Assembly (NCBI GenBank): GCA_913009755.1
Contig: CAJVWU010000046.1
Span: forward strand, 1-32,639
Direction of reading: 5' to 3'
Length of the DNA: 32,639 nt
From: an uncultured Bacteroidia bacterium
Lineage (GTDB): Bacteria; Bacteroidota; Bacteroidia; Bacteroidales; F082
In this document: positions 1,241-32,639 of the stretch, piece by piece
Position numbering within the stretch: the stretch's first letter is position 1
How the letters are laid out: each line of letters begins with the position of its first letter
The notes under the pieces: model-generated
What the model was told of the DNA's origin: nothing
The model's database searches: none
What the model saw: only the letters and a program-made list of their open reading frames with translations
Made by a program: the position numbers and the translations under genes

Positions 1241-4200
1241 TTAATTCACCAGAAACCAGGTGATCAGGTCAAAATTATCCGTATTGTATTTGTCGCTTAC
1301 TTTTTCATTCTCTTTGATCCGTTTCAAAGCTGATCTGTCACCCGTTTTAAGTTTTGCTAACAGGTCTTTGGCTTCTTTCCCCATTTTCTTTTTGATCGTA
1401 CCGTCTTCCTGTTTTTCTTCTTCCACCGCTTGTGCCGTCAACCAGTTTTCAATAGCTGTCACCAAAGGCCTGATAGCTTCTTTTTCTCCCCTGTCAATTT
1501 TATCAGGGACAAATCTTGCTTTTTCTTTGTGCCGTGTAAGCGCATCCAACACTTCCTTTTGGTTCATCAGGACGGGATGGCCTTTCATATCAATGTAGAA
1601 CAGGTCAAATGATTGGTATTTGTATTCTCTGGCTTTAGGTGGTTTGGCAGGATATCCCAACAAAGCAATGATACCTTTTTCAGGACATATCTCTTTATCT
1701 CCGATGAACCCGGTATAAACCCCTTTGGGCATTTTCAAATACTTCTGTTTATTTGCATTGAATTCTCCCAGCAAATCCTGACGATATTTTTCAAGAGAGA
1801 GGTCGTCAAACCCAAGTCCCTGTTCGCTTATTTCAATATCATCCCAGGAAGTTTGCATTTGTTCCAGCATACGTGCTTTCATTTTGTTCTCGAAATTTTC
1901 ATCTTCAGCCATTTCCCTGAATGTATCCGAAAATTCAAGCTGAACTTCCGAGCCAGCCAGCTTCATAGCTGCCATCCGTTGTTCAATTCTTCCTTGCAGG
2001 TTCAAATAAGTGTTGATATTATTTGATGGCCAGAAGTTAATTCCGAAAATCCATTTATTTGGTGAACCAAGCCGGTCAATACGTCCCATTCGCTGAATAA
2101 CTCTTACCGGGTTCCAGTGAATATCATAGTTAATGACCATATCGGCATCCTGCAGGTTTTGCCCTTCACTTAAAGCATCAGTTGCAATAAGCAGATCGAT
2201 GGGGTTTTGGATTTTTTGATAGGTTTTCTCATGATTATCGGCTACCCACTTAATCCACTCTTCATATTTTTCCTGTTCTGACAGTGTTTTAGAACCCGGT
2301 TCAAAGTCCCATTCTTTTTCATTAAAAAGTTTAGTGTAAGGAGCGAATCTTTCCAGGATAGATTCAAAATATTTTGTTTCAGTATCGCTTTCATCCGTTT
2401 TAGATCCTGTTCCGCTGACCAGAGCCATTTTATCAAACCCCCGTGCTTTTAACTGGTTGAAAAGATATTCGGCAGTATCGCGATAAACAGTGAAAATAAC
2501 CACTTTTTGATTATTGTTGTTATTGCCTGATTTTCTTTTGGCTTTTATCTTTTCGATCAATACCTGTAATTTGTCATCGGCGCTTTTGTGATTATCTGGT
2601 TTGATGATTTCTTCATTCATTGCGTTACTAAAACGTTGCAAATTCGCCAGTAAATGATCGAGGGAATCAATGTCCTTTTTTAAATCCCGTTTATACCAAT
2701 CCAGATTGCCGGCTTCGTCAATATCCTTTATATTGATTTTTCGTTTTTTCCCCAAAGTAAATTCAATTTCCTCCGGAATATCTTCTTCATCAAACATCTC
2801 TGCTTCCGGTTCCACATCAAGAATATCTGTTTCCTTATTTTCTTCAAAAGCTTTAATTTTATTCAATGCATTTTGATGATGGTTGAGTATTTTTTCAACT
2901 GTTGATTTAAACGAATACCATGAGGATTCCAGTCTTTTAACCATTAAAATGTACATCATCTTTACCAGGAATCGGTCTCTTTGGACTTCGTCCTCAATGG
3001 CTGATATTTCTGTTTCCCCTCTGGCTTTTGCAAACGCTTTTTTTCTTTTCTCTTCCCAGGTTTCGGCATAAAATGCAGGTTGATACCCTGATAACATCGG
3101 AGGAAAATGCTCAAATAACTCTTCAAAGCTTTCAAAGTTACCCAATTCGTTGGGTGTAACAAAAATATTATCGGGTTTTGCTTTTTCAGGAAAGATCAAC
3201 CCCGTTTGTTGTCCTTCAATCATAGACCGTGTGCGGGCAACAGTGAGAGAGTCTGTTAAAGTAAAGAAACTTGCAGGAAGCTTTTTGATAAACTCCCCGA
3301 TCCGAGGATTGTGTTCATCACGCCAATCATTAAAAGCTTTTTGGGCTGCCCTGAAACTATAGTCAATGTTTTTTATGCCAAGTGTTTCGTAAAATCCCTG
3401 GGTATCGCCTTTGACAATCAGCTTAAATTGATTTCGTATGTCTATTAATGAATTATTTATCGGGGTAGCTGATAACATCAAAACTTTTATGTCTTCATTC
3501 TTTTTTAATATTTGGTCCACAAGAAACTCATATCTTTTCGATTTGGAATTTCTCAGATTATGACTTTCATCAATCACAAACAATTTAGGTTTGTCGTTTG
3601 TAAAGAACTTGTCAGCCCGATCATTATATTTTTCCATACGCTCCGGTTGCAAATCCGTATGAAAACGTATGAAATAATCAAACTGATCTTTTTCAAACCT
3701 GGATTCCTGATGTTTTTTGTACCGGTTCCAGTTGTGTTGCAATTTCTTTGGACATATCAAAATGATCTCTCTGCCTTGTTGCTGAAAGAATTTCATTATA
3801 GCTAATGCTGTCCAGGTTTTTCCAAGACCGACAGCATCGGCCAAAATAGCGCCATTGTATTTTTGAAGCATTTTTATCAAGCTTAATGCCCCCTTTTGTT
3901 GAAATTCGTAAAGAGAATGATAAATGACAGAGTTTTCAAGCCGGCCAACCTGCCGGTTAAATTCAGGATCACTAAGATCTTGTAAAATCTGACTGCCAAA
4001 CAGCTCAAAAAGAACCTTATAATATAAATCTTTAGGTGTATATTTTACGAAAATCCTTTCAATTTCTTCAATCAGATATTCTTTAAAAGGCTTTTTATAT
4101 TTTTTGCCATTTTCATCAATCAGGGTTTTTTCTTTATGAGCCTGCTTCTTTTTCCATAGATCATTAAACCATTGCGCAAGTTCTTTGTATTGATTATTAT

Positions 4201-4672
4201 TTCCTGTTTCAGCAATATTCAGTTCAACATTATTGGTTGTTTTCAATCCTATTCCCGCTTCAGTTAAATTTGAACTTCCGGTAATAAAATAAATATTTCT
4301 CTCATCTTTATTTTTTGGACTAAACAGGTACACTTTTGCGTGACAAAAGTTTGGTTCCAGGGTTTTTGCCACAACTTTATCCTGCTTAAGAAATTCAACA
4401 GCTTCTTTAGCCAATCTGCTCAATTCCAAAGCGGCTTCAATTGTAATATTTTCATTAAGCAAATCAAGCGTTCTGTCGTTAACAGCTTCAATATTTACGA
4501 TATCACCAAGAATAAAACGAAATTGACCTATTTTTTCATTGACATTAAATGAAAGATAGGCAAGTGCTCCAACTGTGAAATAACCTGTAACGATATCAAG
4601 TTTTCCTTCCTCAGTGTATTTTGAAATCCATTCGTGAACTTTTAGATTTTTATTTTCGTTATCTAATATCAT
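1241..4672 (-). CDS. PLD-like nuclease domain fused to SNF2-family helicase (defence-type)
   Basis: This 1143-aa protein has an N-terminal phospholipase-D-like domain with a single HKD-type site (H111-A-K113, then G132-S-S-N135), followed by a superfamily 2 SNF2-type helicase. Helicase motifs are GLGKT at 282-286 (Walker A), DESH at 368-371 (motif II), SATP at 401-404 (motif III), ATDALSEGQNL at 830-840 (motif V) and QRMGRIDR at 860-867 (motif VI). A 400-residue insert between the two RecA lobes includes an acidic stretch near 610-640. Proteins of this plan occur in DNA defence loci such as restriction-modification and DISARM-like systems, where they translocate on and cut or remodel foreign DNA. 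Here it heads a minus-strand set with an Abi gene and a truncated third gene. The gene is visibly more AT-rich than the metabolic genes to its right, which suggests transfer. Start is ATG 4672, close behind a good promoter. The exact system type is unknown. Confidence 0.88.
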   Translation of the reverse strand: MILDNENKNLKVHEWISKYTEEGKLDIVTGYFTVGALAYLSFNVNEKIGQFRFILGDIVNIEAVNDRTLDLLNENITIEAALELSRLAKEAVEFLKQDKVVAKTLEPNFCHAKVYLFSPKNKDERNIYFITGSSNLTEAGIGLKTTNNVELNIAETGNNNQYKELAQWFNDLWKKKQAHKEKTLIDENGKKYKKPFKEYLIEEIERIFVKYTPKDLYYKVLFELFGSQILQDLSDPEFNRQVGRLENSVIYHSLYEFQQKGALSLIKMLQKYNGAILADAVGLGKTWTALAIMKFFQQQGREIILICPKKLQHNWNRYKKHQESRFEKDQFDYFIRFHTDLQPERMEKYNDRADKFFTNDKPKLFVIDESHNLRNSKSKRYEFLVDQILKKNEDIKVLMLSATPINNSLIDIRNQFKLIVKGDTQGFYETLGIKNIDYSFRAAQKAFNDWRDEHNPRIGEFIKKLPASFFTLTDSLTVARTRSMIEGQQTGLIFPEKAKPDNIFVTPNELGNFESFEELFEHFPPMLSGYQPAFYAETWEEKRKKAFAKARGETEISAIEDEVQRDRFLVKMMYILMVKRLESSWYSFKSTVEKILNHHQNALNKIKAFEENKETDILDVEPEAEMFDEEDIPEEIEFTLGKKRKINIKDIDEAGNLDWYKRDLKKDIDSLDHLLANLQRFSNAMNEEIIKPDNHKSADDKLQVLIEKIKAKRKSGNNNNNQKVVIFTVYRDTAEYLFNQLKARGFDKMALVSGTGSKTDESDTETKYFESILERFAPYTKLFNEKEWDFEPGSKTLSEQEKYEEWIKWVADNHEKTYQKIQNPIDLLIATDALSEGQNLQDADMVINYDIHWNPVRVIQRMGRIDRLGSPNKWIFGINFWPSNNINTYLNLQGRIEQRMAAMKLAGSEVQLEFSDTFREMAEDENFENKMKARMLEQMQTSWDDIEISEQGLGFDDLSLEKYRQDLLGEFNANKQKYLKMPKGVYTGFIGDKEICPEKGIIALLGYPAKPPKAREYKYQSFDLFYIDMKGHPVLMNQKEVLDALTRHKEKARFVPDKIDRGEKEAIRPLVTAIENWLTAQAVEEEKQEDGTIKKKMGKEAKDLLAKLKTGDRSALKRIKENEKVSDKYNTDNFDLITWFLVN

Positions 4673-4711
4673 TTTTATCTGTTTCAGTTTTAGTTAATGT
4701 CTTAGAGTCAA

Positions 4712-4741
4712 CAAATTTAAAATAAATGTATCATATTTCAA
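4712..4741 (-). promoter_or_regulatory. Bacteroidota-type promoter for the helicase gene
   Basis: Minus-strand TTG (4741-4739), a 19-base spacer, then TAAATTTG (4719-4712) matches the -33/-7 consensus with the same spacing as the Abi promoter. Transcription would begin near 4704, about 30 bases before the ATG at 4672. Confidence 0.65.
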
Positions 4742-4782
4742 TGTAAACAATCATTGTCTAGTTTTTTGCTGTGGAAAGGAAA

Positions 4783-4844
4783 ATTAAGCTCTTTTGGTTT
4801 TTTCGGGTTTGACTGTGTGTCGGCAAAAACCAAAAGTGCTTAAT
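4783..4844. repeat. 20-bp inverted repeat (long hairpin)
   Basis: The arms 4783-4802 and 4825-4844 are complementary at 19 of 20 positions (the only mismatch involves the T at 4790), with a 22-base loop. The outer end reads ATTAAGC and the inner part CTTTTGGTTTTT. It lies upstream of the helicase promoter and outside any gene. No T-run follows either side in a way that would make a standard terminator. It could be a remnant end of an element or a boundary structure. Confidence 0.75.
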
Positions 4845-5265
4845 GTGCGGTGGCATTCTATCCCTTTTATTTGTAACAAAATTTTCAATCAATGTTCTTT
4901 TTTTTCGGCTTATTGGCAACTTCTTATCTGTTCAACTTTTCTGTATATGCCAAACACCCTTCTTTCGGATACACAAACCTTTTGTGGCTTATATTTAAAA
5001 TTCATCAATATTTCCGAAATGATCAAATGAAACAGCATGGCAGATTAATGTTGGCGTATTTACACATCAAATGTAAAAATATATTCAATGCAGGTGTATA
5101 CACAACTTTTAATTTTTACAAATATTCAGCCCATCTCATTCAGTCTATCTAGGGAAATGGCCGGTCTTTTCTTTTTGCCTGGGTTTTCTTTTTCAACGGG
5201 CTCGTAAAAGAAAATGAAGTAGCTGTGGCCGTTTAAATGAAAGAATATTGCCCCGGATAAATCTG
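4845..5265. other. Gene-free AT-rich intergenic DNA
   Basis: With the flanking promoter and repeat regions, this is a 622-base gap between the divergent helicase and glutamine synthetase genes. The short open frames here lack a recognisable start context, family similarity or normal composition. No tRNA cloverleaf, CRISPR or transposase was seen. It may mark the edge of the acquired defence block. Confidence 0.6.
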
Positions 5266-5273
5266 TATGTTTG
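5266..5273 (+). promoter_or_regulatory. -7 promoter box for the glutamine synthetase gene
   Basis: TATGTTTG matches TAnnTTTG and ends 21 bases before the ATG. No good -33 TTTG lies at the ideal 19-base spacing, so it is a half-supported promoter. GGAAAG just before the ATG could serve as a weak ribosome site. Confidence 0.45.
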
Positions 5274-5294
5274 CATTTTTAAAAATCAGGAAAG

Positions 5295-6797
5295 ATGAAG
5301 AATACACTTTCGATGAATCCGAACCCGATTGTTCAGTACCTGAACAAACATCCGGAACAACTGACAAAGGAAGATTTAATCCGGTTCATTGAAGACCATG
5401 ATATTGAGATGATCAACTTCAGGTATGCCGGCTGGGATGGCCGGTTGAAGACCCTGAATTTTGTGATCAACAGCCATGAGCATCTCGACAATATCCTTAC
5501 AGCCGGTGAACGCGTTGACGGTTCCAGTCTTTTTCCTTTTGTTGAAACCGGTTCCAGTGATTTATACGTCATTCCCCGTTACAAGACCGCTTTCGTAAAC
5601 CCGTTTGCCAAGGTGCCCACACTGGATATTCTTTGTGCCTATTACGACCGGAACGGCAATGCCATGGAAGGATCGCCCGAAAGCATCCTGAAAAAAGCCG
5701 GCGACACTTTTAAAAAGGTTACGGGTTTTAAATTTGAGGCCATGGGCGAACTGGAATATTACATCATCAGCGAAGATGACGGCCTTTTTAAAGCGGATGA
5801 CCAGAAAGGGTATCATGAATCATCGCCTTTTTCCAAATGGAACAATTTCAGGACCCATGCCATGAAGCTGATTGCCGAATCCGGAGGCATTATCAAATAC
5901 GGGCACTCGGAAGTGGGTAACTTTACCAAAGAAGGCAAAGTGTTTGAACAAAATGAAATTGAGTTCCTGCCCTGTCCGGTTGAAGATGCTGCCGACCAGC
6001 TGCTGATTGCCAAATGGATCATCCGCACCCTGGCATATCAATATGGGGTTACGGTGACTTTTGCACCGAAGGTCACGGTGGGTAAAGCCGGGAGCGGGCT
6101 GCACATCCACACCCGCGTGATGAAAGACGGCAAAAACCTGATGACCCAAGATGGCAAATTAAGCGATGTTGCCAAAAAAGCCATTGCCGGTTATATGGAA
6201 CTGGCGCCTTCGCTGACGGCATTCGGTAATTTAAACCCGACTTCCTATTTCCGGCTTGTGCCACACCAGGAAGCCCCCACAAATATTTGCTGGGGCGACC
6301 GCAACCGGTCGGTGCTTGTGCGCGTCCCCCTGGGCTGGTCAACGCCTTCCAATATGGTTCATTCGGTCAACCCGCAGGAAAGCGGCGACATTGTTGACTT
6401 TTCCGATAAACAAACCGTCGAGTTCCGTTGCCCAGACGGCTCGGCAGATATTTATCTGTTGCTGGCCGGTCTTACCGTTGCGGCACGGCATGGTTTTGAA
6501 ATGAAAAATGCCCTTGATGTGGCTGAGAAAACCTATGTTGATGTCAATATCTTTGAAAAAGAAAACAAAGACAGGCAATCGCAACTGGACAAGCTCCCTT
6601 CATCGTGTGTGGATTCGGCTGACCGGCTTTTGCAACAGGCAGACATTTACCGGCAATACAATGTGTTTCCGGAATATGTCCTGAAATATCATGCTGATAT
6701 GCTCAAAGCTTTCCGCGACAAAGGCCTCATCGCCAAAATCCAGGATGACGATGAACAGGTGATGGAACTGGTCACCAAACATTTTTATTGCGGTTGA
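5295..6797 (+). CDS. glnA: Glutamine synthetase (type I-like)
   Basis: This 500-aa enzyme joins ammonia to glutamate using ATP. An N-terminal beta-grasp region (about 30-110, with RVDGSSLFPF at 73-82) is followed by the catalytic domain. Active-site landmarks are the metal-binding ELEYY (E152, E154), GSGLHIH at 266-272 (metal-ligand His270), the ATP/glutamate site NRSVLVRVP at 337-345, and the PDGSAD stretch near the C-terminus. It is somewhat longer than classic GSI (about 470 aa), as is usual for Bacteroidota GSI-like enzymes. No NLYDL-type adenylylation tyrosine motif is seen (the region reads KTYVDVN), so adenylylation control is unlikely. It is monocistronic, bounded by two hairpins downstream. 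A related gamma-glutamyl ligase is possible but less likely given the conserved metal and ATP motifs. Confidence 0.88.
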   Translation: MKNTLSMNPNPIVQYLNKHPEQLTKEDLIRFIEDHDIEMINFRYAGWDGRLKTLNFVINSHEHLDNILTAGERVDGSSLFPFVETGSSDLYVIPRYKTAFVNPFAKVPTLDILCAYYDRNGNAMEGSPESILKKAGDTFKKVTGFKFEAMGELEYYIISEDDGLFKADDQKGYHESSPFSKWNNFRTHAMKLIAESGGIIKYGHSEVGNFTKEGKVFEQNEIEFLPCPVEDAADQLLIAKWIIRTLAYQYGVTVTFAPKVTVGKAGSGLHIHTRVMKDGKNLMTQDGKLSDVAKKAIAGYMELAPSLTAFGNLNPTSYFRLVPHQEAPTNICWGDRNRSVLVRVPLGWSTPSNMVHSVNPQESGDIVDFSDKQTVEFRCPDGSADIYLLLAGLTVAARHGFEMKNALDVAEKTYVDVNIFEKENKDRQSQLDKLPSSCVDSADRLLQQADIYRQYNVFPEYVLKYHADMLKAFRDKGLIAKIQDDDEQVMELVTKHFYCG

Positions 6798-6818
6798 TAT
6801 TGGAATCAATTCCAATAT
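6797..6818. repeat. Perfect palindrome at the end of the glutamine synthetase gene
   Basis: ATATTGGAAT, CA, ATTCCAATAT: 10-bp arms with a 2-base centre, starting at the last base of the stop codon. It forms a tandem hairpin pair with the terminator at 6832 between two convergent genes. Confidence 0.75.
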
Positions 6819-6831
6819 TATTATCATAATT

Positions 6832-6859
6832 CCGGATTTTAATCCGGTTTTACCTTTTT
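6832..6859 (+). terminator. Intrinsic terminator after the glutamine synthetase gene
   Basis: CCGGATT/AATCCGG (6832-6847) forms a short stem followed by TTTTACCTTTTT. It sits 35 bases after the stop and faces a convergent gene. Confidence 0.65.
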
Positions 6860-6905
6860 GAAAATCAGACGAACAATAAAGCCGGAAGATAAAATGTAAC
6901 GCCTC

Positions 6906-7961
6906 TTAATCAATTACTTTATATTTCTTTTCTTTTCTGAACACCCTCCGCAACCAGACAGGTAGTACGGCAGCCCCGATGAATAGATAAGGGTAATAGG
7001 AGATCAGCCGCCAGAGGATAGCCAGGGGCACTGTCCATGATGGGTCGGGAATAAAATCACCGAGAAAATCAGTAAAGATGTATTCGGCAATGCCACTCCC
7101 CCCCGGTGTGGGACTGATCAGCAAAATGATCCACATACTCAGTTGCCGGCCATAAATAAGGAACTGGTCCCAAAGGGTGTATCGCTGATAAAAAAAGGCC
7201 ATCAACAGAAAATTAACAACCCAGTAGCGGCCTGTCCAGGCAAAAATAGTGGCCACGGAACTTTTTAACCAGTAAGAAAACGGTTTCCCTTTCAATTCAC
7301 GGGAAGTACGTATTAACTGGTTAGCCGACTTGCGGGCCCGCATCCGCCACCTGACCAAAATAGGAAAAAGAAACACCCATGAAATAAATGATTTAAAGAT
7401 GTGGGGGTTGATAAACAGGGCATAAGCCAAAAAAAGCGTATAGATCAAAATGATGATATACCCACCTAAAAATGCATAGGTAATTTCCACTATCCTGGCC
7501 GACTCGGGTGGGAAGATGTTGTTTCCGTATATCGCATAAACCAACGGAACAGACAGGATGAAGAACATCTCATCCAGAAAAATAGCCGTTAGAACCACTG
7601 CAGTACTTTTCCCCAGGGTGATGCCTTCTTTGTGAAGGAAAAAAATAGCCGGCCCCGTACCCCCGACTACCGATGGGGAAATTGCCGAACTGAACTCCCA
7701 CAACATGATCACGTTGAACGCCTGTTTCCAGTTCATCCGGTTATCGGTAAGGACAATGATGCGGTACATATAGGAAACATCGCGGACAACCATCATCAGG
7801 ATGGCAATAAAAAGAAAGAACAGGACGTGCCAGGTAAATTTGACAAAAGAAAAACTTTCCGTGTTAAAGTTCTTATAAAGCAACAGTCCGCTTGCCAATA
7901 ATCCGATAAGAATAGGCCAAATAATCCTGCGGGGGCGCAAACTGTTGATGATCTTGTCCAA
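6906..7961 (-). CDS. Flippase-like integral membrane protein (LPG synthase TM / UPF0104 family)
   Basis: This 351-aa protein is almost entirely hydrophobic, with about seven or eight membrane spans and a basic N-terminus (PRRIIWP). The stretch FSSAISPSVVGGTGPAIFFL (about 90-109) and the later SPTPGGSGIAEY segment (about 283-294) are the two signature glycine/proline loops of the lysylphosphatidylglycerol-synthase transmembrane family (YbhN/AglD-like). No catalytic synthase domain is attached, so lipid or glycolipid flipping is more likely than aminoacyl-lipid synthesis. The frame begins with TTG at 7961; no in-frame ATG lies between this codon and the upstream stop, and the next Met is after the first membrane span, so TTG is probably the true start. 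It is convergent with the glutamine synthetase gene and divergent from hsp20. Substrate unknown. Confidence 0.85.
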   Translation of the reverse strand: MDKIINSLRPRRIIWPILIGLLASGLLLYKNFNTESFSFVKFTWHVLFFLFIAILMMVVRDVSYMYRIIVLTDNRMNWKQAFNVIMLWEFSSAISPSVVGGTGPAIFFLHKEGITLGKSTAVVLTAIFLDEMFFILSVPLVYAIYGNNIFPPESARIVEITYAFLGGYIIILIYTLFLAYALFINPHIFKSFISWVFLFPILVRWRMRARKSANQLIRTSRELKGKPFSYWLKSSVATIFAWTGRYWVVNFLLMAFFYQRYTLWDQFLIYGRQLSMWIILLISPTPGGSGIAEYIFTDFLGDFIPDPSWTVPLAILWRLISYYPYLFIGAAVLPVWLRRVFRKEKKYKVID

Positions 7962-8039
7962 GAATCCGTGGTTTAGGCGGCTAAATTACAAAACATCATG
8001 GTGATGCATTGTCAAAAAAATATTAAAATAACAGACGTA

Positions 8040-8076
8040 TTGACAGCGTAATGTTTTATTAAGTGTCATATTGACA
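8040..8076 (+). promoter_or_regulatory. Candidate promoter/operator of hsp20: repeated TTGACA and TGTCA-TAT-TGACA palindrome
   Basis: TTGACA occurs at 8040-8045 and 8071-8076, and TGTCATATTGACA (8064-8076) is a perfect 5-bp-arm palindrome with a 3-base spacer. It lies about 95 bases before the hsp20 ATG. This looks like a repressor or stress-regulator site, or a -35-like element; the binding protein is unknown. Confidence 0.4.
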
Positions 8077-8157
8077 GATATTTAACAATATATTCCCGGT
8101 GGAACAAGATTTGAAAAACAAAAGCAGGAAACAAATAAATCATTAACAATAATAAAA

Positions 8158-8164
8158 AAGGAGG
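8158..8164 (+). promoter_or_regulatory. Strong Shine-Dalgarno of hsp20
   Basis: AAGGAGG lies 7 bases before the ATG at 8172. Most genes in this window have weak or no Shine-Dalgarno, as is common in Bacteroidota, so a near-perfect site suggests selection for very high translation on induction. Confidence 0.75.
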
Positions 8165-8171
8165 ATAGATC

Positions 8172-8591
8172 ATGAACTTAGTAAGATTTCAAAAAAGCCC
8201 TGTTTTTTCGGGACTGTTCCGCGAATTTGAAAATGACTTTTTCAGGAATAATGAAGTTGAAAAAGGGGATGTTCCCGCTGTGAACATTCTGGAAGATGAA
8301 AAACAATTTGTTCTTGAAATGGCTGCACCGGGTTTAAAAAAGGATGATTTCAAGATCAACCTTGACAATCAGGTATTAACCATTTCGAGGGAACAGGAAG
8401 AAAAGAAAGAAGAAAAAAATGAGAATTACACCCGTAGGGAATTCTTGTTCAATAGCTTCAGACGATCGTTCACACTGCCAGAAACCATTGATTTCGACAA
8501 CATAAAGGCAGATTACAAAAGCGGCATTCTCAGGATAACATTGCCCAAAGACGAAAAAGCCCGGCTGACCCGCGACATTAAAATACAATAA
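8172..8591 (+). CDS. hsp20: Small heat shock protein, Hsp20/alpha-crystallin family
   Basis: This 139-aa cytoplasmic holdase keeps unfolding proteins soluble until ATP-dependent chaperones act. A short N-terminal arm (1-33) precedes the alpha-crystallin domain (about 34-130), which contains PAVNILEDEKQFVLEMAAPG, the conserved GILRITLPK near the end, and the C-terminal IKI tail (IxI motif) used for oligomer assembly. Length is typical. It is a single-gene unit with a palindromic upstream region, a strong Shine-Dalgarno and its own terminator, all consistent with sharp stress induction. Confidence 0.95.
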   Translation: MNLVRFQKSPVFSGLFREFENDFFRNNEVEKGDVPAVNILEDEKQFVLEMAAPGLKKDDFKINLDNQVLTISREQEEKKEEKNENYTRREFLFNSFRRSFTLPETIDFDNIKADYKSGILRITLPKDEKARLTRDIKIQ

Positions 8592-8611
8592 ACAACGTTT
8601 GACTTTTCATG

Positions 8612-8652
8612 ACCCCGCTATGGTGTGAGATGCCGTGGCGGGGTTTCTTTTT
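8612..8652 (+). terminator. Intrinsic terminator after hsp20
   Basis: ACCCCGC (8612-8618) pairs with GCGGGGT (8638-8644), extended inward by wobble and G-C pairs, and is followed by TTTCTTTTT. It lies 20 bases after the stop. From here to 8875 no gene was seen. Confidence 0.85.
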
Positions 8653-8875
8653 AACCGGCTTCTCACTTTTATCTGATTCCCGACGATGATCAGATTTTTC
8701 AAACAGTTTGAAAATGTCAGGAACGGCAGGATGAGTAGCAGGGTTATTAATGTTTGTTTCATGATTCTTTTTTTTTCACATGTTTTTAAATGTTATAGAA
8801 GGTGTTTGTTGTTTCAGATGGCTACGGGCTTGTTCCCCGCCCTTGCAACACTTTCCTTGACCCGAAAGGTTATCA

Positions 8876-9397
8876 CTACTTCCTACCCTGCTCTTTCACC
8901 TTATATAAATAATGCGCCATATCCCCGAATTTTTCAGCCGGAACATTGATGAACAAACCTTCGGAAGTGGAATAAACGAGATCACCGCTGTATATTTTCC
9001 CTTTTGTAACCACCTTGCGGCCGTCAATTGATTCCACCCAGGCTTCAACCGTTACGACTGAGTTTACCGGAAGCATCTCAATATATTCCACAATAATTTT
9101 TGCGGCAACCACTGTTTGCCCAGCTAACCAGGCTGCAAACCCCATGGCTTCATCCAACACGGCTGCCATGCTTCCCCCGTGTGCATGTCCGGGAGGACCC
9201 TGTGTGGCCACGCCAAAATAAACTTTGCCAAAAAACCGGTTGTCACTTTCACGCGTAAAATATCTGACGGTCAACCGGTCGCCGGAGTGGTCACCAATCA
9301 CAAATGAACGTTGCTTACGATACTCTTCAGGATAATTAACCTCCTTCCAGCCGGGGTCCCCTTTTAAATCGGGTTTGTTTGATTTGTTCATGTCCAT
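8876..9397 (-). CDS. Hotdog-fold acyl-CoA thioesterase (PaaI/4HBT family)
   Basis: The 173-aa product of the ATG at 9397 hydrolyses an acyl-CoA or holds such a thioester. The core motif GHAHGGSMAAVLDEAMG (H71, H73-G-G, then D82/E83) is the PaaI-type HGG motif with the acidic residue on the central helix. The frame is open to a TTG at 9544, but that longer form would overlap the divergent malonyl-CoA decarboxylase start, adds 49 low-complexity residues and lacks an ATG; 9397 or 9391 (two nearby Met codons) is preferred. It is divergent from the decarboxylase gene, with about 130 bases of shared upstream DNA, which suggests a joint role in acyl-CoA housekeeping. Substrate unknown. Confidence 0.85.
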   Translation of the reverse strand: MDMNKSNKPDLKGDPGWKEVNYPEEYRKQRSFVIGDHSGDRLTVRYFTRESDNRFFGKVYFGVATQGPPGHAHGGSMAAVLDEAMGFAAWLAGQTVVAAKIIVEYIEMLPVNSVVTVEAWVESIDGRKVVTKGKIYSGDLVYSTSEGLFINVPAEKFGDMAHYLYKVKEQGRK

Positions 9398-25826: not shown

Positions 25827-27167
25827 CTAAAGGTCAACTTTCAATCCAAAGTTAATACCAAATGACCTGAACTTTTGATCAACCGGGTAATTATTTTTAA
25901 AAACTGAATTCAGGTTTTGTTTGTAGAAAGGTGACAGGCTCAAACTCCAGGCAGGGGTGAGGTGATAAGTAAAGCCGGCCTGAAAAATATAATTGAACAG
26001 GTATTTGTTCATTTCATCGTTCAGGTCATTTAATTCTGTAAATCTGTTTTTATCGTTAAGGTCTGGCACGTTGCCCCGGGCATCAAGTAGAAAGCCACAG
26101 GAAAAACCGGTACTGACTTCAAAGCCAAATCGGCCCCGGTTGAATTTGTACCCGCCCGTTAACGGAACTTCCAGGTATTTCCAACGGTTGTATCCTTCCT
26201 GGGTTGTGTTGTAAACCGGGACAAAAATTGTGTCATATCCCAGGATTATCGGTTTGCCGATATCCGGCGGGTCGAATACCCAACCCCATATCGTATCTGT
26301 TTGAAAATAACTGTTCAGGCTGTCAAGTGCCTGAAAGGAGTTGTTGTAATTCCGGGTTTGCCTGAATTCGCTGTATTCCAGTCCGGTTTGGATATACCAG
26401 TTTCGCATATTTAACCTGATGTTGACACCGGTTGAAACGGAAATTGCCGGCCCTTCATGTTCGTTTCTGTATTTTAAATGATCCTCATAACCTGCTGCTG
26501 CTTTTAAGGCAAACCCTGTATAAGAAGGAGCAACATAAAATCCGATGCTGATCCGGTTCTTTTTCAGCTTAATGTCGTAAGGGGTTTTCACAAGGAATCC
26601 GGTATCCAATGCGGCCAATTCAATTTTTTTACCGGCAAGTGAATTTATTTTAAAATCACTTCGTTCGGTGGGTGAAATCCCCGGCAGTCTCTTTACATCA
26701 GTGTTTGCGGTTATTGCAACCTCATTTGTATTATTGGAAATGGTGGTTTCCGGTTCCGGAGGAGTGGCATCGTTTATGATATTCAGGTTATTGTTATTTG
26801 CAGAAAAATTGCTTGTGCCTGGTGTTGAGGCATTTTCCCGGTCTTGGTTACCGGAAGGTTTTGATAAATTACTCTTTTTTGCTTGTGTAATGGCCGGTTC
26901 TGTATATATTGGCCCTGATTCAAATGACCGGGTTGTCATACTTTTTTCTGTCACGGAATTTTGCTGTTCGCTGTTTATGGACCCTGTGAAAAAATAAATG
27001 CCCAACACCAATATTGCCGTAGCGCCAATTCCAAGAATGTACCCCTTGTAATTTAGCCAGAACAGGCGCCAGCGCATTTTGACCCGGGTATAGGCGGAAG
27101 CATTCTGCGTGTGGTTTTTTAAAGCCTTCCTGTAGAATTCGTCTATTTGATTAAAATCATTCTTCAT
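25827..27167 (-). CDS. Inner-membrane anti-sigma-like N-terminus fused to an outer-membrane beta-barrel
   Basis: This 446-aa protein has three parts. Residues 1-40 are a short basic cytoplasmic helix region (NQIDEFYRKALKNH, then RVKMRWRLFWLNY). Residues 42-61 are one strong membrane span. Residues 62-200 are a Ser/Thr/Asn/Pro-rich linker. From about 206 the chain is a PorT-like outer-membrane beta-barrel: alternating strands such as RISIGFYVAPSYTGFAL and WYIQTGLEYSEF, ending GINFGLKVDL. No signal peptide cleavage site was seen. The gene begins 5 bases after an ECF sigma factor and is almost certainly co-transcribed and its regulatory partner. Inference: one protein links both membranes, with the barrel sensing and the N-terminus holding the sigma factor. 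There is no zinc-binding HxxxCxxC motif. Confidence 0.8.
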   Translation of the reverse strand: MKNDFNQIDEFYRKALKNHTQNASAYTRVKMRWRLFWLNYKGYILGIGATAILVLGIYFFTGSINSEQQNSVTEKSMTTRSFESGPIYTEPAITQAKKSNLSKPSGNQDRENASTPGTSNFSANNNNLNIINDATPPEPETTISNNTNEVAITANTDVKRLPGISPTERSDFKINSLAGKKIELAALDTGFLVKTPYDIKLKKNRISIGFYVAPSYTGFALKAAAGYEDHLKYRNEHEGPAISVSTGVNIRLNMRNWYIQTGLEYSEFRQTRNYNNSFQALDSLNSYFQTDTIWGWVFDPPDIGKPIILGYDTIFVPVYNTTQEGYNRWKYLEVPLTGGYKFNRGRFGFEVSTGFSCGFLLDARGNVPDLNDKNRFTELNDLNDEMNKYLFNYIFQAGFTYHLTPAWSLSLSPFYKQNLNSVFKNNYPVDQKFRSFGINFGLKVDL

Positions 27168-27172
27168 TTCCT

Positions 27173-27769
27173 TTAAAATATTTTGCCCGGTTCAACGATG
27201 TTTTTTTTTTCAATAAAAGGTTGTATTTCCGGAATGCTTTCAAGTAACAGCAATTTTTGTTTTAATTTCTTCCTTGCTTTCATCAGTTGCGTTTTCGAAG
27301 TGCTTTCCGTGATATTAAGTTTTTCAGCAATTTCCTTATGCGTATATCCTTCAATGGCATACAAGTTAAAAACGATCCGGTAGCCGTTGGGTAATTCCTG
27401 TATTGTCCGGATAATGTCCTCCAACGAAAAATTATCGGGAATGTAATCAACGCCGGTATCATCTGTTGTGAGATCATCGAAATTTTCAGTAAAATAATGT
27501 TTCAGGTTTTTCCGGTAATTGTCAATGGCCACATTGATCATGATCCTTTTCATCCATCCTTCAAACGAACCTCTTCCGCTGTAATCGTTTATTTTATTAA
27601 ATATCCTTGCAAGTCCCACAAGCAGAATGTCTTCGGCCTCTGCATTGCTTTTTGCATAACGGACACAAATGCCCATTAACACCGGATGATAACGATCAAA
27701 CAGTGCTTTCTGGGCGCGATGCTTACCTCTCCGGCATCCGTTAATAATATACGCCTCGTTTAAGTACAT
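27173..27769 (-). CDS. ECF (sigma-70 family) RNA polymerase sigma factor
   Basis: This 198-aa protein has region 2 (about 10-100, ALFDRYHPVLMGICVRYAKS, then SFEGWMKRIMINVAIDNYRKN) and region 4 (about 125-180, YTHKEIAEKLNITESTSKTQ, then LMKARKKL). The region 2.2 motif usually seen as DILQEGF is here DILLVGL, so the conserved Gln-Glu/Asp pair that contacts core polymerase is altered; the rest of region 2 is intact. It is transcribed away from a second ECF gene and immediately precedes its membrane partner. The ATG is at 27769. Confidence 0.92.
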   Translation of the reverse strand: MYLNEAYIINGCRRGKHRAQKALFDRYHPVLMGICVRYAKSNAEAEDILLVGLARIFNKINDYSGRGSFEGWMKRIMINVAIDNYRKNLKHYFTENFDDLTTDDTGVDYIPDNFSLEDIIRTIQELPNGYRIVFNLYAIEGYTHKEIAEKLNITESTSKTQLMKARKKLKQKLLLLESIPEIQPFIEKKNIVEPGKIF

Positions 27770-28286: not shown

Positions 28287-28919
28287 ATGAAAAAACAGTA
28301 TCTTACAGCCGTAATTCCCTCAAACATGGCCAAAGCTGCTACTGTTCTTTATCAAAATACGTTTACCTCCCCGTTGGTTGAGGCCATAAAAGTTAACGAA
28401 GAATGGGCTTTACGAACGCTTTACAAAGACAACTATGAGAAAGTTGAAACATTAATCTTACGAAACAGCGGGACAAAAGAAGAGGCCAAAGACATTTTTC
28501 AGGAAGCATTCATTGCGGCATGGAGAAACATAAAAGACAATAAATTTTTACCGGAAAATAATAGCGCTATAAACGGTTATTTATATACCATAGCAAAAAA
28601 CAAGTGGATGGATTATCTGCGGTCACCGGAATATAAAAAGAAGGTTGCGTTCAATAGCTCAATTGCCGAACCTGTTCATTTACCTGCTGATGGCAAAGGT
28701 GATTCTGAAGAATTTAACAAAAAACTTTCGGTGGCAATGGAAGCATTTGAAAAACTGGGTGAAGCCTGTAAAAACCTGCTGATCAAGTTTTATTTCGAGA
28801 AAAAATCAATGAAGGAAATTGCCGAAGAGCTGCAAATGGATGCTTCATCTGCCAGGAACAAAAAGTACAGGTGCATGCAGGTTTTACGTGAGCTTGCCTT
28901 TGAAAAAGATGTTGAATAA
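28287..28919 (+). CDS. ECF (sigma-70 family) RNA polymerase sigma factor, CHAT operon
   Basis: This 210-aa protein has region 2 with the intact core-binding motif DIFQEAFIAAWRNI (69-82) and YLYTIAKNKWMDYLRS, a linker, and region 4 with SMKEIAEELQMDASSARNKKY. It is closest in style to Bacteroidota ECF factors paired with membrane anti-sigma proteins. A second Met at residue 14 (28326) is an alternative start; the first, preceded by AAAAAAAG, is kept. The next gene, 57 bases downstream, has the look of its anti-sigma; a small TTCCC/GGGAA hairpin (28944-28958) lies in that gap. It probably directs its own operon. Confidence 0.93.
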   Translation: MKKQYLTAVIPSNMAKAATVLYQNTFTSPLVEAIKVNEEWALRTLYKDNYEKVETLILRNSGTKEEAKDIFQEAFIAAWRNIKDNKFLPENNSAINGYLYTIAKNKWMDYLRSPEYKKKVAFNSSIAEPVHLPADGKGDSEEFNKKLSVAMEAFEKLGEACKNLLIKFYFEKKSMKEIAEELQMDASSARNKKYRCMQVLRELAFEKDVE

Positions 28920-28976
28920 TGTATTCGTTAGTAAAAATGACAATTCCCGGTCTGGGAAATCAAATGAAAAAACCGG

Positions 28977-29711
28977 ATGAAAAAGCACAACCAATCACAG
29001 GAAGAGTTTGAACGTATTGAGCGGTATCTTACCGGAAGGATGGACGACAATGAGAAGCCGGATTTTGAAGCTTCCCTGAAAACCGACCCCCGGTTACGAA
29101 AACAAACGGAGGAAGTCAGGGCTTTGCTACATGCCATCGAAGAAAAAAAACTCCGCGAAAAACTGGATGATTTCCATGAAGAACTCACTGCCGGGAACCG
29201 CCGGGTAATCTCTGTCAGGCCTTTTCTGAAGTATGCCATCGCCGCATCTATAGCTTTGCTGATCGGGTTGGGTGTCTGGCTGCTGTCTGTCCGGAAAACT
29301 CCGGACGAAAAACTTTTTTCCCAATACTTCAAGCCCGATCCGGGCCTGGTCACCCCCATGAGTACCACACCCGATTACGAGTTTTACCGGGGCATGGTGG
29401 ACTACAAACAGGGGAAATACAAACCGGCCATCAGGCGCTGGAGGCCCCTGATTGAACAAAAGCCCAAAAACGACACGTTGAATTTTTACCTTGGCGTTGC
29501 CTGGTTAGCACAAGGTGAAAACAAAAAAGCCATTGTTTATCTTTCAAAGGCGGTAAAATATCCGAATAGCACATTTATCAATGAAGCCTGGTATTATTTG
29601 GGCCTGGCGCTCTTAAAAGAGGGCCATTCGGAAAAAGCCATCCACTCGTTCAAAAAAAGCAACCTTGAAAACAGCAATTTGATTTTAAAAGAGATGGGCT
29701 CTGCAAAATGA
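28977..29711 (+). CDS. Single-span anti-sigma-like protein with periplasmic TPRs
   Basis: The first 80 residues of this 244-aa protein are cytoplasmic and have the sequence pattern of anti-sigma domains (FERIERYLTGRMDDNEKPDF, then LKTDPRLRKQTEEVRALLHAI), but without the zinc-binding His-Cys-Cys set. One membrane span follows at about 84-105 (YAIAASIALLIGLGVWLL). Next is a short juxtamembrane stretch FSQYFKPDP (114-122), then about three TPR units (133-165, 167-198, 203-235; for example NFYLGVAWLAQGENKKAIVYL). Topology puts the TPRs in the periplasm. The stop overlaps the start of the TPR-CHAT gene (ATGA), so the two are translationally coupled. Inference: it holds the upstream sigma factor at the membrane and offers its TPR side to the CHAT protein. 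Direct sigma binding is not proven by sequence. Confidence 0.82.
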   Translation: MKKHNQSQEEFERIERYLTGRMDDNEKPDFEASLKTDPRLRKQTEEVRALLHAIEEKKLREKLDDFHEELTAGNRRVISVRPFLKYAIAASIALLIGLGVWLLSVRKTPDEKLFSQYFKPDPGLVTPMSTTPDYEFYRGMVDYKQGKYKPAIRRWRPLIEQKPKNDTLNFYLGVAWLAQGENKKAIVYLSKAVKYPNSTFINEAWYYLGLALLKEGHSEKAIHSFKKSNLENSNLILKEMGSAK

Positions 29712-32524
29712 TGAACTTTAAAAGACAAATAACATTTATATCATACTTTATCGTAATTCAAATCAGCTTTGGACAAGATGCGAAAATCACCGGTACAAAA
29801 CTGATTGACAGCTATTTAAGTAACGGGGAATTTGTCAGGGCCGATTCTGCTCTTCAGCAACAAATTGCCCGGCTAAAATCCCAGCAATTAACAGACTCAT
29901 TAATTGATTACATTTATTATATCGGGAAAGTAAAACTGAAATTAAGTAATACCAGCCAGGCAACAAAAGCTGTTACGGAATTTACTGACGGCATCAAGGC
30001 AAGTACCGTGAAACCCCGCTTGCTGCGTCAACTGTACCTGGAACTGGGTTCTTTTTACAACCTCATTGGCAACCCCCAAAAAGCTTACGAGAGCAACCTT
30101 ACAGCGCTTGATTACACTGTAAAAATAAAAAATGCCACGGGCGAAGATTTCGGGCTTGTCCACAGCAATATGGGCACGTACGCAAAATATATTGGCAATT
30201 TGCACCTGGCATTACAACATCATCGAAAAGCTTTAAAATACTATGAATCGTGGCCCGGAACCGAAAAGTCAAGTTTGTACATTACTTATAACTCCCTGGG
30301 CGGGATGATGTGGTTTTCTTCAAAAATCGACAGCGCATTGTATTATTATAAACTGGCAGGTTCCGTATTGAAAGAATTGCCGCAAACGCCCCTCAACAAA
30401 TATTTCAGGCCGGCGATGCTTAACAACAATATTGCTGCGATTTATGGTAGTCAGGGGAATATGGAAAAGGCCATGCAGTCGATGAAAAGCACGATAAATA
30501 ACTGGATATCCTTTTTAAATTCAGAAGCAAGCGATGATAAAAAAGAATCCGGGAAAAACGCATATTACCAGGCTATCGAAAATTATGCCGGACTTTATAA
30601 AGACCTTGGTGATTATCAGAAAGCCAAAGACTTGTTATCCTATGCATATCATGAAAAGCTGAAATCCCTTGATGCTGACAACCCTGAACTGTTCAAATCA
30701 AAAATACTTTTGGGGCAAATTTACCTCGCCCTGAAAGAATACAAACTGGCGGATGAGTATCTTGACGCAGGCATAGCCCATATTGCAAGTATCCCAGGTG
30801 CCTTTTATTTTTGGGATGCCGATGCACATTATTACAAAGCCACGGCAAACGAAGCATTGGGAAAAACAGAGATTGCAGCAAGGTATTATGCACAAGCCCA
30901 AATTCTTTACGACAAAGCCCTGCAAGGCGCTTACGATGAAATTTACCTGGAATTTATTATCAAGGCATCCTACTTTTATGCGAAAAGCGGTGAGCGCGAC
31001 AAAGCCCTTGAAATGGCACATAAAGCCTACGACTACATTGTGGAGAATCAGGGGGAGAAAACCATGTTCGAGTTTCAGCAGGTGCTGAATCTGGGCGAAA
31101 TTTACTATGTCCTGGGTGATTACGAACAGGCCTTGATGAAAAGTACCAGGGCGCTGAACCTATTGAAAGACCGCATGTATTCAGGGGATACAGCTTTGGA
31201 TTCTGTTTTTATCCTATTTGAAAAACCGCAGGCAGTTTTGTTGAAAGTAAAGTCAGCTTTCCATTTGACGCCTGAAACCGATACGGTTTTTCTGAAGGGC
31301 GCACTTGACGAGATGCAGGAAGCCCTCACAATCCTGGAACGCAGAAAACCTTTTCTGGGCGACAACAACAATTTATCCGTCCTTATAGCTGACAACAACA
31401 GCATTTTTGAATTTGCCAAAACCCTGGCTTTGGAATTATTTAAACAAACCGGGAACGAAGCTTATTTAAACATCATTTTCGGCATGCACGAGTCCAGCCT
31501 GTACAACAGGATAAGGTCGAGGCTCGGCATACAGGTTTCCATGTCTTACAAAGATCTGCCTGAAGAAATTCTGGCTCAGGAAAAATCACTTAAGTCAGCT
31601 TTGCGGAACGCATTGAACCAACAAAATGGTATTGATGCGTTTTTTGTGGCCAATATCAAATGGAAATACTTTTTGAACACCTTAAAAAGGGATTATCCCG
31701 AATACTACAGATTGCAGTATGCATCAATTGCAGAATCAGAGGATAACATTTGGCCGGAGGTTCCGGGAAACACGACCGTTGTCAGGTATGTTTTTATTTC
31801 GGACAGTCTGTTTGTTTTGGTATTTGACGGCACCTCCAAATACATCTTTAAATTACATCAGGACGACCTGGCCGGGCAAATAGCCAAAGCCATTTCCGAT
31901 TCAATTTCATTTGAAGAAGTTTCAGACGTGCTCCGGCAACTCTATAATTCACTATGGAAGCCCATTGAAAACAGGGTGAAAACAAAACGTGTCATCATTA
32001 TCCCCGACAGGGAGCTGTTCAATTTAAGTTTCGAGATTTTGACTCCCGAACCCATTACGTCCTGTGCCGGTTTGGCCGAAAACAGTTTGCTATCGCGGCA
32101 TTCCATCGCTTACGAATACAGTTTGTTGCTGGTAAACCATGACAAAAGGGCTACCAAATTCAGTAACAACTTTGTTGCTTTCGTTCCGGAGTTTAACGAT
32201 AAAATGAAGGAAGATTATAAAATTTCAATTGCCGATTCCCTGCTTCTTGACAAAACCTACCTTACCCTGTTGCCCCAGCCGTTCAGTCTGAGCCTTGCAA
32301 AAGCATCGGTACGATTGTTCGATGGCAAATCGTTCCTGAACGGGCAATCCACTAAACAAATTTTTATGAACAGTGCCGGTGAGCATAAAATCATTCACAT
32401 CGGTACCCATGCCGAGTCCAACAATTTAAGCCCCGAATTGTCCCGGCTGGTTTTTGCAAAATCGTTGAAAAAAGGCGGTTCGGAAGAAGATAACTCCTTG
32501 TTTGTTTACGAAGAAGTTGTTTAA
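29708..32524 (+). CDS. Secreted TPR-CHAT (caspase-like) protein, C-terminus truncated before the catalytic Cys
   Basis: The 938-aa reading frame starts with a signal peptide (MMNFKRQITFISYFIVIQIS, cleavage near FGQ), so the protein is exported. Residues about 40-560 are many TPRs (for example YKDLGDYQKAKDLLSYAYHE and YYKATANEALGKTEIAARYY). From about 690 a CHAT domain begins (TVVRYVFISDSLFVLVFDG, then VIIIPDRELFNLSFEIL), reaching the His motif HIGTHAE (897-903, catalytic His901). The chain then stops 37 residues later at SLFVYEEVV. In the family the nucleophile lies further on in an SACETG-type motif, followed by 80-100 more residues; all of this is missing. Shifting frame gives at most six more residues. 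The sequence beyond 32520 is palindrome-rich and non-coding. So this copy is interrupted or misassembled. It overlaps the anti-sigma-like gene by 4 bases. Confidence 0.85.
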   Translation: MMNFKRQITFISYFIVIQISFGQDAKITGTKLIDSYLSNGEFVRADSALQQQIARLKSQQLTDSLIDYIYYIGKVKLKLSNTSQATKAVTEFTDGIKASTVKPRLLRQLYLELGSFYNLIGNPQKAYESNLTALDYTVKIKNATGEDFGLVHSNMGTYAKYIGNLHLALQHHRKALKYYESWPGTEKSSLYITYNSLGGMMWFSSKIDSALYYYKLAGSVLKELPQTPLNKYFRPAMLNNNIAAIYGSQGNMEKAMQSMKSTINNWISFLNSEASDDKKESGKNAYYQAIENYAGLYKDLGDYQKAKDLLSYAYHEKLKSLDADNPELFKSKILLGQIYLALKEYKLADEYLDAGIAHIASIPGAFYFWDADAHYYKATANEALGKTEIAARYYAQAQILYDKALQGAYDEIYLEFIIKASYFYAKSGERDKALEMAHKAYDYIVENQGEKTMFEFQQVLNLGEIYYVLGDYEQALMKSTRALNLLKDRMYSGDTALDSVFILFEKPQAVLLKVKSAFHLTPETDTVFLKGALDEMQEALTILERRKPFLGDNNNLSVLIADNNSIFEFAKTLALELFKQTGNEAYLNIIFGMHESSLYNRIRSRLGIQVSMSYKDLPEEILAQEKSLKSALRNALNQQNGIDAFFVANIKWKYFLNTLKRDYPEYYRLQYASIAESEDNIWPEVPGNTTVVRYVFISDSLFVLVFDGTSKYIFKLHQDDLAGQIAKAISDSISFEEVSDVLRQLYNSLWKPIENRVKTKRVIIIPDRELFNLSFEILTPEPITSCAGLAENSLLSRHSIAYEYSLLLVNHDKRATKFSNNFVAFVPEFNDKMKEDYKISIADSLLLDKTYLTLLPQPFSLSLAKASVRLFDGKSFLNGQSTKQIFMNSAGEHKIIHIGTHAESNNLSPELSRLVFAKSLKKGGSEEDNSLFVYEEVV

Positions 32525-32545
32525 AGTTAACTACCACATAATCAA

Positions 32546-32614
32546 TCAACATTTAAATGTTGAAAAGAAAGAATGATACAAGAATATCGAAAATCAATAC
32601 TTTGTACCATTCTT
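32546..32614. repeat. Palindrome cluster at the contig end, possible insertion-element terminus
   Basis: TCAACATTTAAATGTTGA (32546-32563) is a perfect 18-bp palindrome. Directly after it AAGAATGATACAA (32569-32581) pairs with TTGTACCATTCTT (32602-32614) at 12 of 13 positions around a 20-base loop. CTACCACAT (32531-32539) and ATGTGGTTAG near 32634 are a further imperfect inverted pair. They lie just after the point where the CHAT gene breaks off and just before the contig stops. Subterminal hairpins and an assembly break both suit a multicopy element, but no transposase is in view. Confidence 0.5.
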
Positions 32615-32639
32615 CCAAAAAAAAATGTGGTTAGACAAA

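Follow-up and report, generated by a model that had tools for sequence, protein, structure and literature searches.

We analysed a 32,639-nucleotide stretch of DNA from an uncultured Bacteroidia bacterium (assembly GCA_913009755.1), hereafter the window, which is the entire contig C46 of a genome (G000) that is 98% complete. Near its right end it carries plus-strand genes for an extracytoplasmic function (ECF) sigma factor (gene 1), a one-span membrane protein with tetratricopeptide repeats (TPR) that is likely its anti-sigma factor (gene 2), and a TPR-CHAT protein (gene 3), and we judge this trio to be a trans-envelope ECF/anti-sigma/CHAT signalling module. In the proposed scheme, the N-terminal part of gene 2 would keep the ECF sigma factor bound on the cytoplasmic side of the inner membrane, and the gene 2 TPR part and the TPR-CHAT protein, with its signal peptide and C-terminal anchor, would lie on the periplasmic side of this membrane; an envelope signal would be sensed via the TPR array of the CHAT protein, the caspase-like CHAT site would cut gene 2 outside the membrane, and further proteolysis would release the sigma factor for transcription of its genes. 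The topology is predicted, and we infer that gene 2 binds sigma and is cleaved by CHAT, as well as the sequence of events; such cleavage is to us the likeliest mechanism, held with evenly balanced confidence.

The gene set that a preliminary description of this DNA had claimed, with sigma factor, one-span TPR protein and TPR-CHAT on the same strand at 28287-32524, is borne out by the open reading frame (ORF) list, and the grouping that it proposed from this one locus recurs elsewhere. A contig scan gave six close CHAT loci (L002-L007), five of which (L002-L005 and L007) keep the same-strand order sigma, gene 2, CHAT. Among 395 genomes of the phylum, 22 have a match to the CHAT alignment at 1e-60 and 28 to that of gene 2 at 1e-15, and 50 stretches were fetched around these matches (51 with contig C132 of the window's genome); the Pfam CHAT profile PF12770 matches 97 of 198 genomes at 1e-15, the window's genome being included in all three counts. 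Genes were called as a greedy longest-ORF list, in which small genes may be missed. A CHAT gene lies within five genes of a gene 2 relative in 47 loci, the window not counted, and a sigma gene was seen in 42 of these. The transmembrane threshold is passed by 44 of the 47 loci (45 genes, since L175 has two), and three were admitted by name: L073, whose hydrophobic tail was recognised by eye, and L080 and L087, whose CHATs are unanchored.

For statistics, we drew a systematic sample by taking every third PF12770 match listed, which covers stronger matches only and comprises 50 matches at 49 loci, 46 of them newly fetched (L121-L166) and three from earlier stretches; 14 hand-picked loci were excluded. 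The 49 sampled loci carry 52 CHAT genes, two of them not themselves drawn, of which 21 are C-anchored and 31 unanchored. A gene 2 relative lies at most three genes away from 15 of the 21 anchored CHATs and from none of the 31 unanchored ones (Fisher p=1.2e-8). At the same radius, the counts collapsed to taxonomic families are 4 of 7 anchored versus 0 of 12 unanchored (p=0.009).

The 47 loci show four arrangements, namely convergent (21 loci), operonic (11), with sigma and gene 2 flanking CHAT (8) and divergent (7), and the linkage thus outlives rearrangement. In 34 loci the sigma gene is a same-strand neighbour of gene 2, and in 8 it lies beyond CHAT; it was not found in the other five of the 47 (L076, L078, L118, L152, L160), two of which (L152 and L160) are near a contig end. 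These arrangements bear on an alternative in which CHAT is the output of the system, so that the released sigma factor would raise CHAT expression and the protease would act on envelope targets, in stress clean-up or cell death. Such an output would suit the 11 of 47 loci in which CHAT lies same-strand downstream of sigma and anti-sigma, but it is less favoured because CHAT and gene 2 occupy opposite strands in 36 of 47. No candidate promoter words for sigma turned up other than GTTACC, GGTTAAC and GGTAAAC; these, themselves weak evidence, stand upstream of sigma in nine non-operon loci and upstream of the CHAT unit in just one of these nine, so that inclusion of CHAT in the sigma regulon via a common promoter word is not supported. 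We rate the output role as unlikely, though the likeliest of the alternatives.

Co-inheritance of the three genes was assessed from sequence distances. The distances of the CHAT domain and of gene 2 correlate at 0.82 over the 47 loci, and when gene 2 partners are swapped among paralogous loci within a genome, only two of 20,736 combinations, including the true pairing, reach this value. Where a sigma gene is adjacent (34 loci), the CHAT domain correlates with sigma at 0.71, with the gene 2 TPR part at 0.66 and with its cytoplasmic part at 0.50; in the swap test, the CHAT TPRs and the gene 2 cytoplasmic part gave no significant pairing (322 of 3456). The trio is inherited together as a cassette, which does not imply contact between its products. 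The linkage might also reflect chance neighbours or an ancestral gene order without function, given that gene 2 relatives are common nearby (among 209 background genes, all at a distance of four genes or more from a sampled CHAT, 31 have such a relative no more than three genes off). This explanation is already disfavoured by the enrichment at anchored CHATs, the four arrangements and the paralogue-specific co-inheritance, and we leave it a very slight probability.

The Cys-His pair expected of intact homologues is present throughout, both residues being found in all 104 CHAT domains aligned apart from the window's own, a set that spans the anchored and unanchored classes and excludes three fragments. 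In an alignment of 40 diverse CHAT domains, one Trp, two His and the Cys do not vary, and the dyad is in 40 of 40 rows. The profile of this alignment finds at about 3e-9 PDB chains titled 'CHAT domain protein', among them 8d9f and 7x8a, and its His and Cys align with theirs in the alignments shown; we take these chains to be the TPR-CHAT of Craspase. The same profile matches a chain named Csx29 (7y9x) at 0.0021 and has its best PDB match in 8rot (2.9e-12). A PDB search with the six close CHATs returned mostly TPR-type chains and no chain named CHAT. The AlphaFold model of the L002 CHAT (6 rows) is usable in the TPR part and too poor to use in the CHAT half, where the predicted local distance difference test (pLDDT) is below 50 over residues 788-989. 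By its domain and by the His-Cys dyad of its homologues, gene 3 is assigned to the CHAT-domain family, with predicted protease activity.

Transmembrane segments, signals and orientation were called by script from hydropathy and charge counts. Lys and Arg are richer before than after the transmembrane segment in 46 of 47 gene 2 relatives and equal in one, and the simplest reading is that gene 2 is N-in, C-out; the single transmembrane segment, anti-sigma-like cytoplasmic part and periplasmic TPRs initially attributed to it agree with the predicted topology of its relatives. The CHAT protein had been described as secreted. Its signal peptide is retained in our analysis, and an N-terminal hydrophobic stretch is found in 40 of 45 CHATs (without L080 and L087), but the protein is probably not simply secreted, since a C-terminal transmembrane helix is predicted in its intact close relatives (6 of 6), mostly followed by basic residues. 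Across the same 45 proteins, Lys and Arg after the tail segment outnumber those before it in 37, equal them in six and are fewer in two. CHAT is thus probably anchored in the inner membrane as a type I protein whose protease part is periplasmic, and the TPR parts of gene 2 and CHAT are predicted to share one compartment. The earlier idea of a triad placed across the inner membrane is accordingly retained in its recurrence, its dyad and its predicted same-side topology, and amended in that CHAT is probably anchored and that the window copy is disrupted by an insertion sequence.

A shared compartment and paired inheritance would also suit a different relationship, in which the gene 2 TPR domain inhibits CHAT and one membrane protein restrains both sigma factor and protease; we consider this highly improbable. 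Somewhat better placed, and still distinctly unlikely in our view, is a model in which the substrate of CHAT is a further, exported protein, frequently a lipoprotein or subtilase encoded immediately upstream, and gene 2 would be a receptor and not a substrate, its TPRs binding either the cleavage product or the TPRs of CHAT. In separate units CHAT often comes after a short gene whose product starts like a lipoprotein. S8 peptidase genes, assigned from a motif or a profile of two sequences and then confirmed with Pfam, lie directly upstream of CHAT in L007, L100 and L163 (3 of 45 anchored), and the ECF54 loci contain subtilase, carboxypeptidase and CHAT genes, according to PMC8999054. Against this model, the slot upstream of CHAT varies, being housekeeping-like by eye in several loci or absent, and a constant third effector gene was not found there. 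Direct cleavage of gene 2 by CHAT is favoured because a protease and a likely membrane sigma inhibitor are linked across rearrangements, on the same predicted side and with the dyad intact, and because the TPR-CHAT protease of the CASP system cuts a sigma inhibitor (PMC10028731).

Several observations weigh against this reading. Six of the 21 anchored sampled CHATs have no gene 2 relative within three genes; at a radius of five genes, such a relative is near 17 of 21 anchored and also 6 of 31 unanchored CHATs; and the contrast is weaker for sigma, which lies within three genes of 13 of 21 anchored and 9 of 31 unanchored CHATs (p=0.024). Nineteen fetched loci hold a gene 2 relative and no CHAT within the stretch, the close relative L006 has a CHAT without a sigma or anti-sigma relative within six genes, and L080 and L087, outside the sample, combine unanchored CHATs with a recognised gene 2 relative and sigma. 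The partial correlations of the CHAT domain are small for the gene 2 parts (0.18 and 0.03) and 0.27 for sigma, and for this reason the shared inheritance of the cassette is no proof of contact. For gene 2 itself, the anti-sigma matches are weak and below cut-offs (NF052375, 6.2e-6; PRK13920, 3.4e-4), NF052375 and NF047528 each weakly match three of six gene 2 members, and a comparison of relatives revealed no cleavage motif that is strongly conserved in the linker of gene 2.

Further exceptions concern the unanchored class. In L074 and L130, among the 31 unanchored, and in L086, outside the sample, sigma is separated from the unanchored CHAT by a one-span gene of 244-267 residues (249-267 in L074 and L130) that the profile does not recognise; the one in L130 (549-5945) has no Pfam match. 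At least two of the 31 unanchored CHATs look like undetected gene 2 cases, and the one-span genes of the three loci possibly represent further anti-sigma families paired with CHAT. A strict restriction of the pair to anchored CHATs was dropped after L080, L087, L074, L086 and L130: anchored CHATs are strongly enriched beside the sigma/gene 2 pair, and anchoring is not a strict rule. This softening leaves our assessment of the cleavage reading unaltered, since linkage and co-inheritance are its main basis. A second CHAT class, lacking a C-terminal transmembrane segment, occurs as two nearby copies in L075, L077, L082, L083 and L085, all of family f25, and lies downstream of a 317-residue gene, which is FtsY-like (SRP54 GTPase) in L077.

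In the window, gene 1 encodes an ECF sigma factor of 197 residues (28326..28919, plus strand), with a TIGR02937 sigma70-ECF match of 4.3e-21 (75.2 bits against a cut-off of 42.9) and Pfam matches to Sigma70_r2 (1.8e-11, above cut-off) and Sigma70 region 4_2 (1.0e-4, 22.3 bits, below its cut-off of 25.7). The ORF list and the preliminary description start it at 28287, which gives 210 residues; we place the start at 28326 because five homologues begin at residue 14 or later of the longer version and lack its first 13 residues. A TATCTT hexamer at 28299..28304 on the plus strand, noticed by eye as a candidate -10 element of the operon promoter, falls within the coding part proposed from 28287, which supports the later start; the same word precedes sigma, also by eye, in L002, L003, L004, L005, L007 and L070. 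Another word, TGTTACC, stands about 50-65 bp ahead of sigma start codons (for example in L101, L110, L112, L116, L120, L162 and L175) and is a possible autoregulation site; GTTACC occurs in 13 of 59 regions upstream of sigma versus 9 of 306 other upstream regions, uncorrected for the words tried. On the minus strand (25827-27769), a second, divergent ECF sigma gene adjoins the operon and precedes the gene of a 446-residue one-span protein without a Pfam match at 0.01 and two genes with type IX secretion tails.

Gene 2 (28977..29711, plus strand) encodes 244 residues, with a predicted cytoplasmic helical N-terminal part, one transmembrane segment and a periplasmic TPR domain (TPR_2, 8.6e-13). 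Its structure model has a mean pLDDT of 76 and helices at residues 8-18, 27-36 and 38-71 ahead of the transmembrane segment, which occupies residues 87-103 in the close homologue of L002. Among the best 50 of 1308 Foldseek matches, TPR-type and designed helical proteins predominate, and no title names an anti-sigma factor. Position, topology and the weak profile matches make gene 2 likely the anti-sigma factor of gene 1. It ends at 29711, and the CHAT gene starts at 29708, so the reported ATGA overlap is real in the window; as a conserved hallmark it does not hold, the gaps ranging from -1 to 111 bp in ten other operons with gene 2 directly before CHAT (with start codons chosen by script, nine operons measured together and L073 from its coordinates).

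The CHAT gene of the window is broken, which the preliminary description did not mention; its ORF continues to 32524, into an insertion sequence that breaks the gene from 32513, and the catalytic Cys is found on contig C132. The part at 29708..32512 (plus strand) encodes the signal peptide, the TPR array (TPR_12, 1.7e-16) and the CHAT domain through the catalytic His region (PF12770, 4.1e-10, profile positions 2-173 of 289 only), and the window's own ORF lacks the Cys owing to the insertion. The last 127 bases of the window (32513..32639, plus strand, contig end) are the end of a multicopy insertion sequence; five other contigs of this genome (C97, C81, C51, C141 and C144) end in copies of 100% identity, and weaker copies (82-93%) occur on three further contigs. 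The element has 15-bp inverted ends (GAAGTTGTTTAAAGT) and has probably been recently active in this genome. The missing C-terminal part lies on C132, where positions 125-544 are 76% identical to L007 and the remainder of the gene, at about 125-556, includes the catalytic Cys and a C-terminal hydrophobic tail. An inverted copy of the 15-bp end precedes this remainder, with GAA on both flanks, and in our reading the insertion sequence split the gene between the codons for the catalytic His and Cys and duplicated 3 bp. No stop interrupts the matched part of either half, which suggests a recent event. Searches at 1e-3, 10 and 1e-60 found no other close CHAT copy in this genome besides the two halves; intact copies in part of the population may be hidden by the assembly, and unless such a part keeps an intact CHAT, the pathway is presumably locked in a single state here.

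Among the close relatives, the CHAT domain is the most conserved part of the protein. The L007 CHAT (5742-8963) consists of two ORFs of one frame separated by an in-frame stop, natural or assembly-derived, and a subtilase gene (3823-5685) lies between gene 2 and CHAT in this locus. A gene for a DUF6090-type membrane protein follows CHAT in L002 (11350-12078), L007 (8970-9719) and L008 (from about 565); the assignment is via Pfam in L007 and by resemblance in L002 and C132, where the gene is apparently shortened.

The trio is not a member of type III-E, because no RAMP gene of gRAMP size was found in the window's genome and its sigma factor lies outside the CASP-sigma family. gRAMP (Cas7-11) is a single, far longer protein; in this genome PF03787 matches only in four ORFs of 210-648 residues on contig C26. 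These RAMP-family ORFs (C26, 2075-6721) are probably an ordinary type III CRISPR set. The window sigma reaches 38.0 bits with NF041236 against a cut-off of 100, and among the ten matches of the CASP-sigma model in this genome it ranks only second, which argues against a close tie with type III-E; a special kinship with CASP-sigma is not supported. None of the three window proteins matches the known anti-phage defence systems of PADLOC-DB, and the L002 CHAT matches there only a generic TPR model.

The site-1 protease of RseA/DegS/RseP-type pathways is a PDZ serine protease, whereas in the trio a cysteine CHAT protease is encoded alongside its sigma factor, which also sets it apart from RsiW-type pathways. 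The likeness to both lies in a membrane anti-sigma factor with an outside part, an envelope signal and a proteolytic trigger (PMC10028731). In the searched open-licence literature, as far as it was accessible, no description of a sigma/anti-sigma/CHAT trio was found. The nearest published precedent found is the ECF54 loci (PMC8999054), in which an ECF gene is linked to CHAT and subtilase and proteolytic control is proposed; they are described there without an anti-sigma factor, on a model from Geodermatophilus, whereas an anti-sigma-like gene belongs to the core here. EACC2-caspase systems likewise have a caspase-fold protein, an ECF sigma factor and a TPR protein (DUF1822) as neighbours, but their TPR protein differs and their C-terminal domains are variable, and the word CHAT does not occur in the main text of the source (PMC8195603). 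PMC7406223 reports that only 6% of Bacteroidetes ECFs adjoin a class I anti-sigma domain, and for these sigma factors, few of which have such a neighbour, the trio would offer a mode of control.

Regulated anti-sigma proteolysis and CHAT control of a sigma inhibitor are known separately, the latter only intracellularly and under CRISPR in the literature searched. In CASP, cutting of the inhibitor has been shown, and relief of sigma inhibition is the supported model (PMC10028731). If our reading is true, the trio would provide a caspase-fold site-1 protease with a testable substrate, outside signals may switch genes on by proteolysis in many Bacteroidota-type bacteria, and there would be a non-CRISPR setting where Craspase logic may have arisen. 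With Craspase/CASP (Csx29 TPR-CHAT, Csx30 and CASP-sigma) the trio shares the gene set of a TPR-CHAT protease, a sigma inhibitor and an ECF sigma factor, and the CHAT profiles are related; Craspase is intracellular and RNA-activated via Cas7-11, whereas here a signal peptide, an anchor and a membrane-spanning TPR inhibitor are predicted. We suggest tentatively, with somewhat less than even confidence, that widespread and previously undescribed periplasmic, anchored CHAT site-1 proteases acting on TPR anti-sigma factors form a trans-envelope counterpart of the Craspase arm, possibly near the stock that CRISPR recruited.

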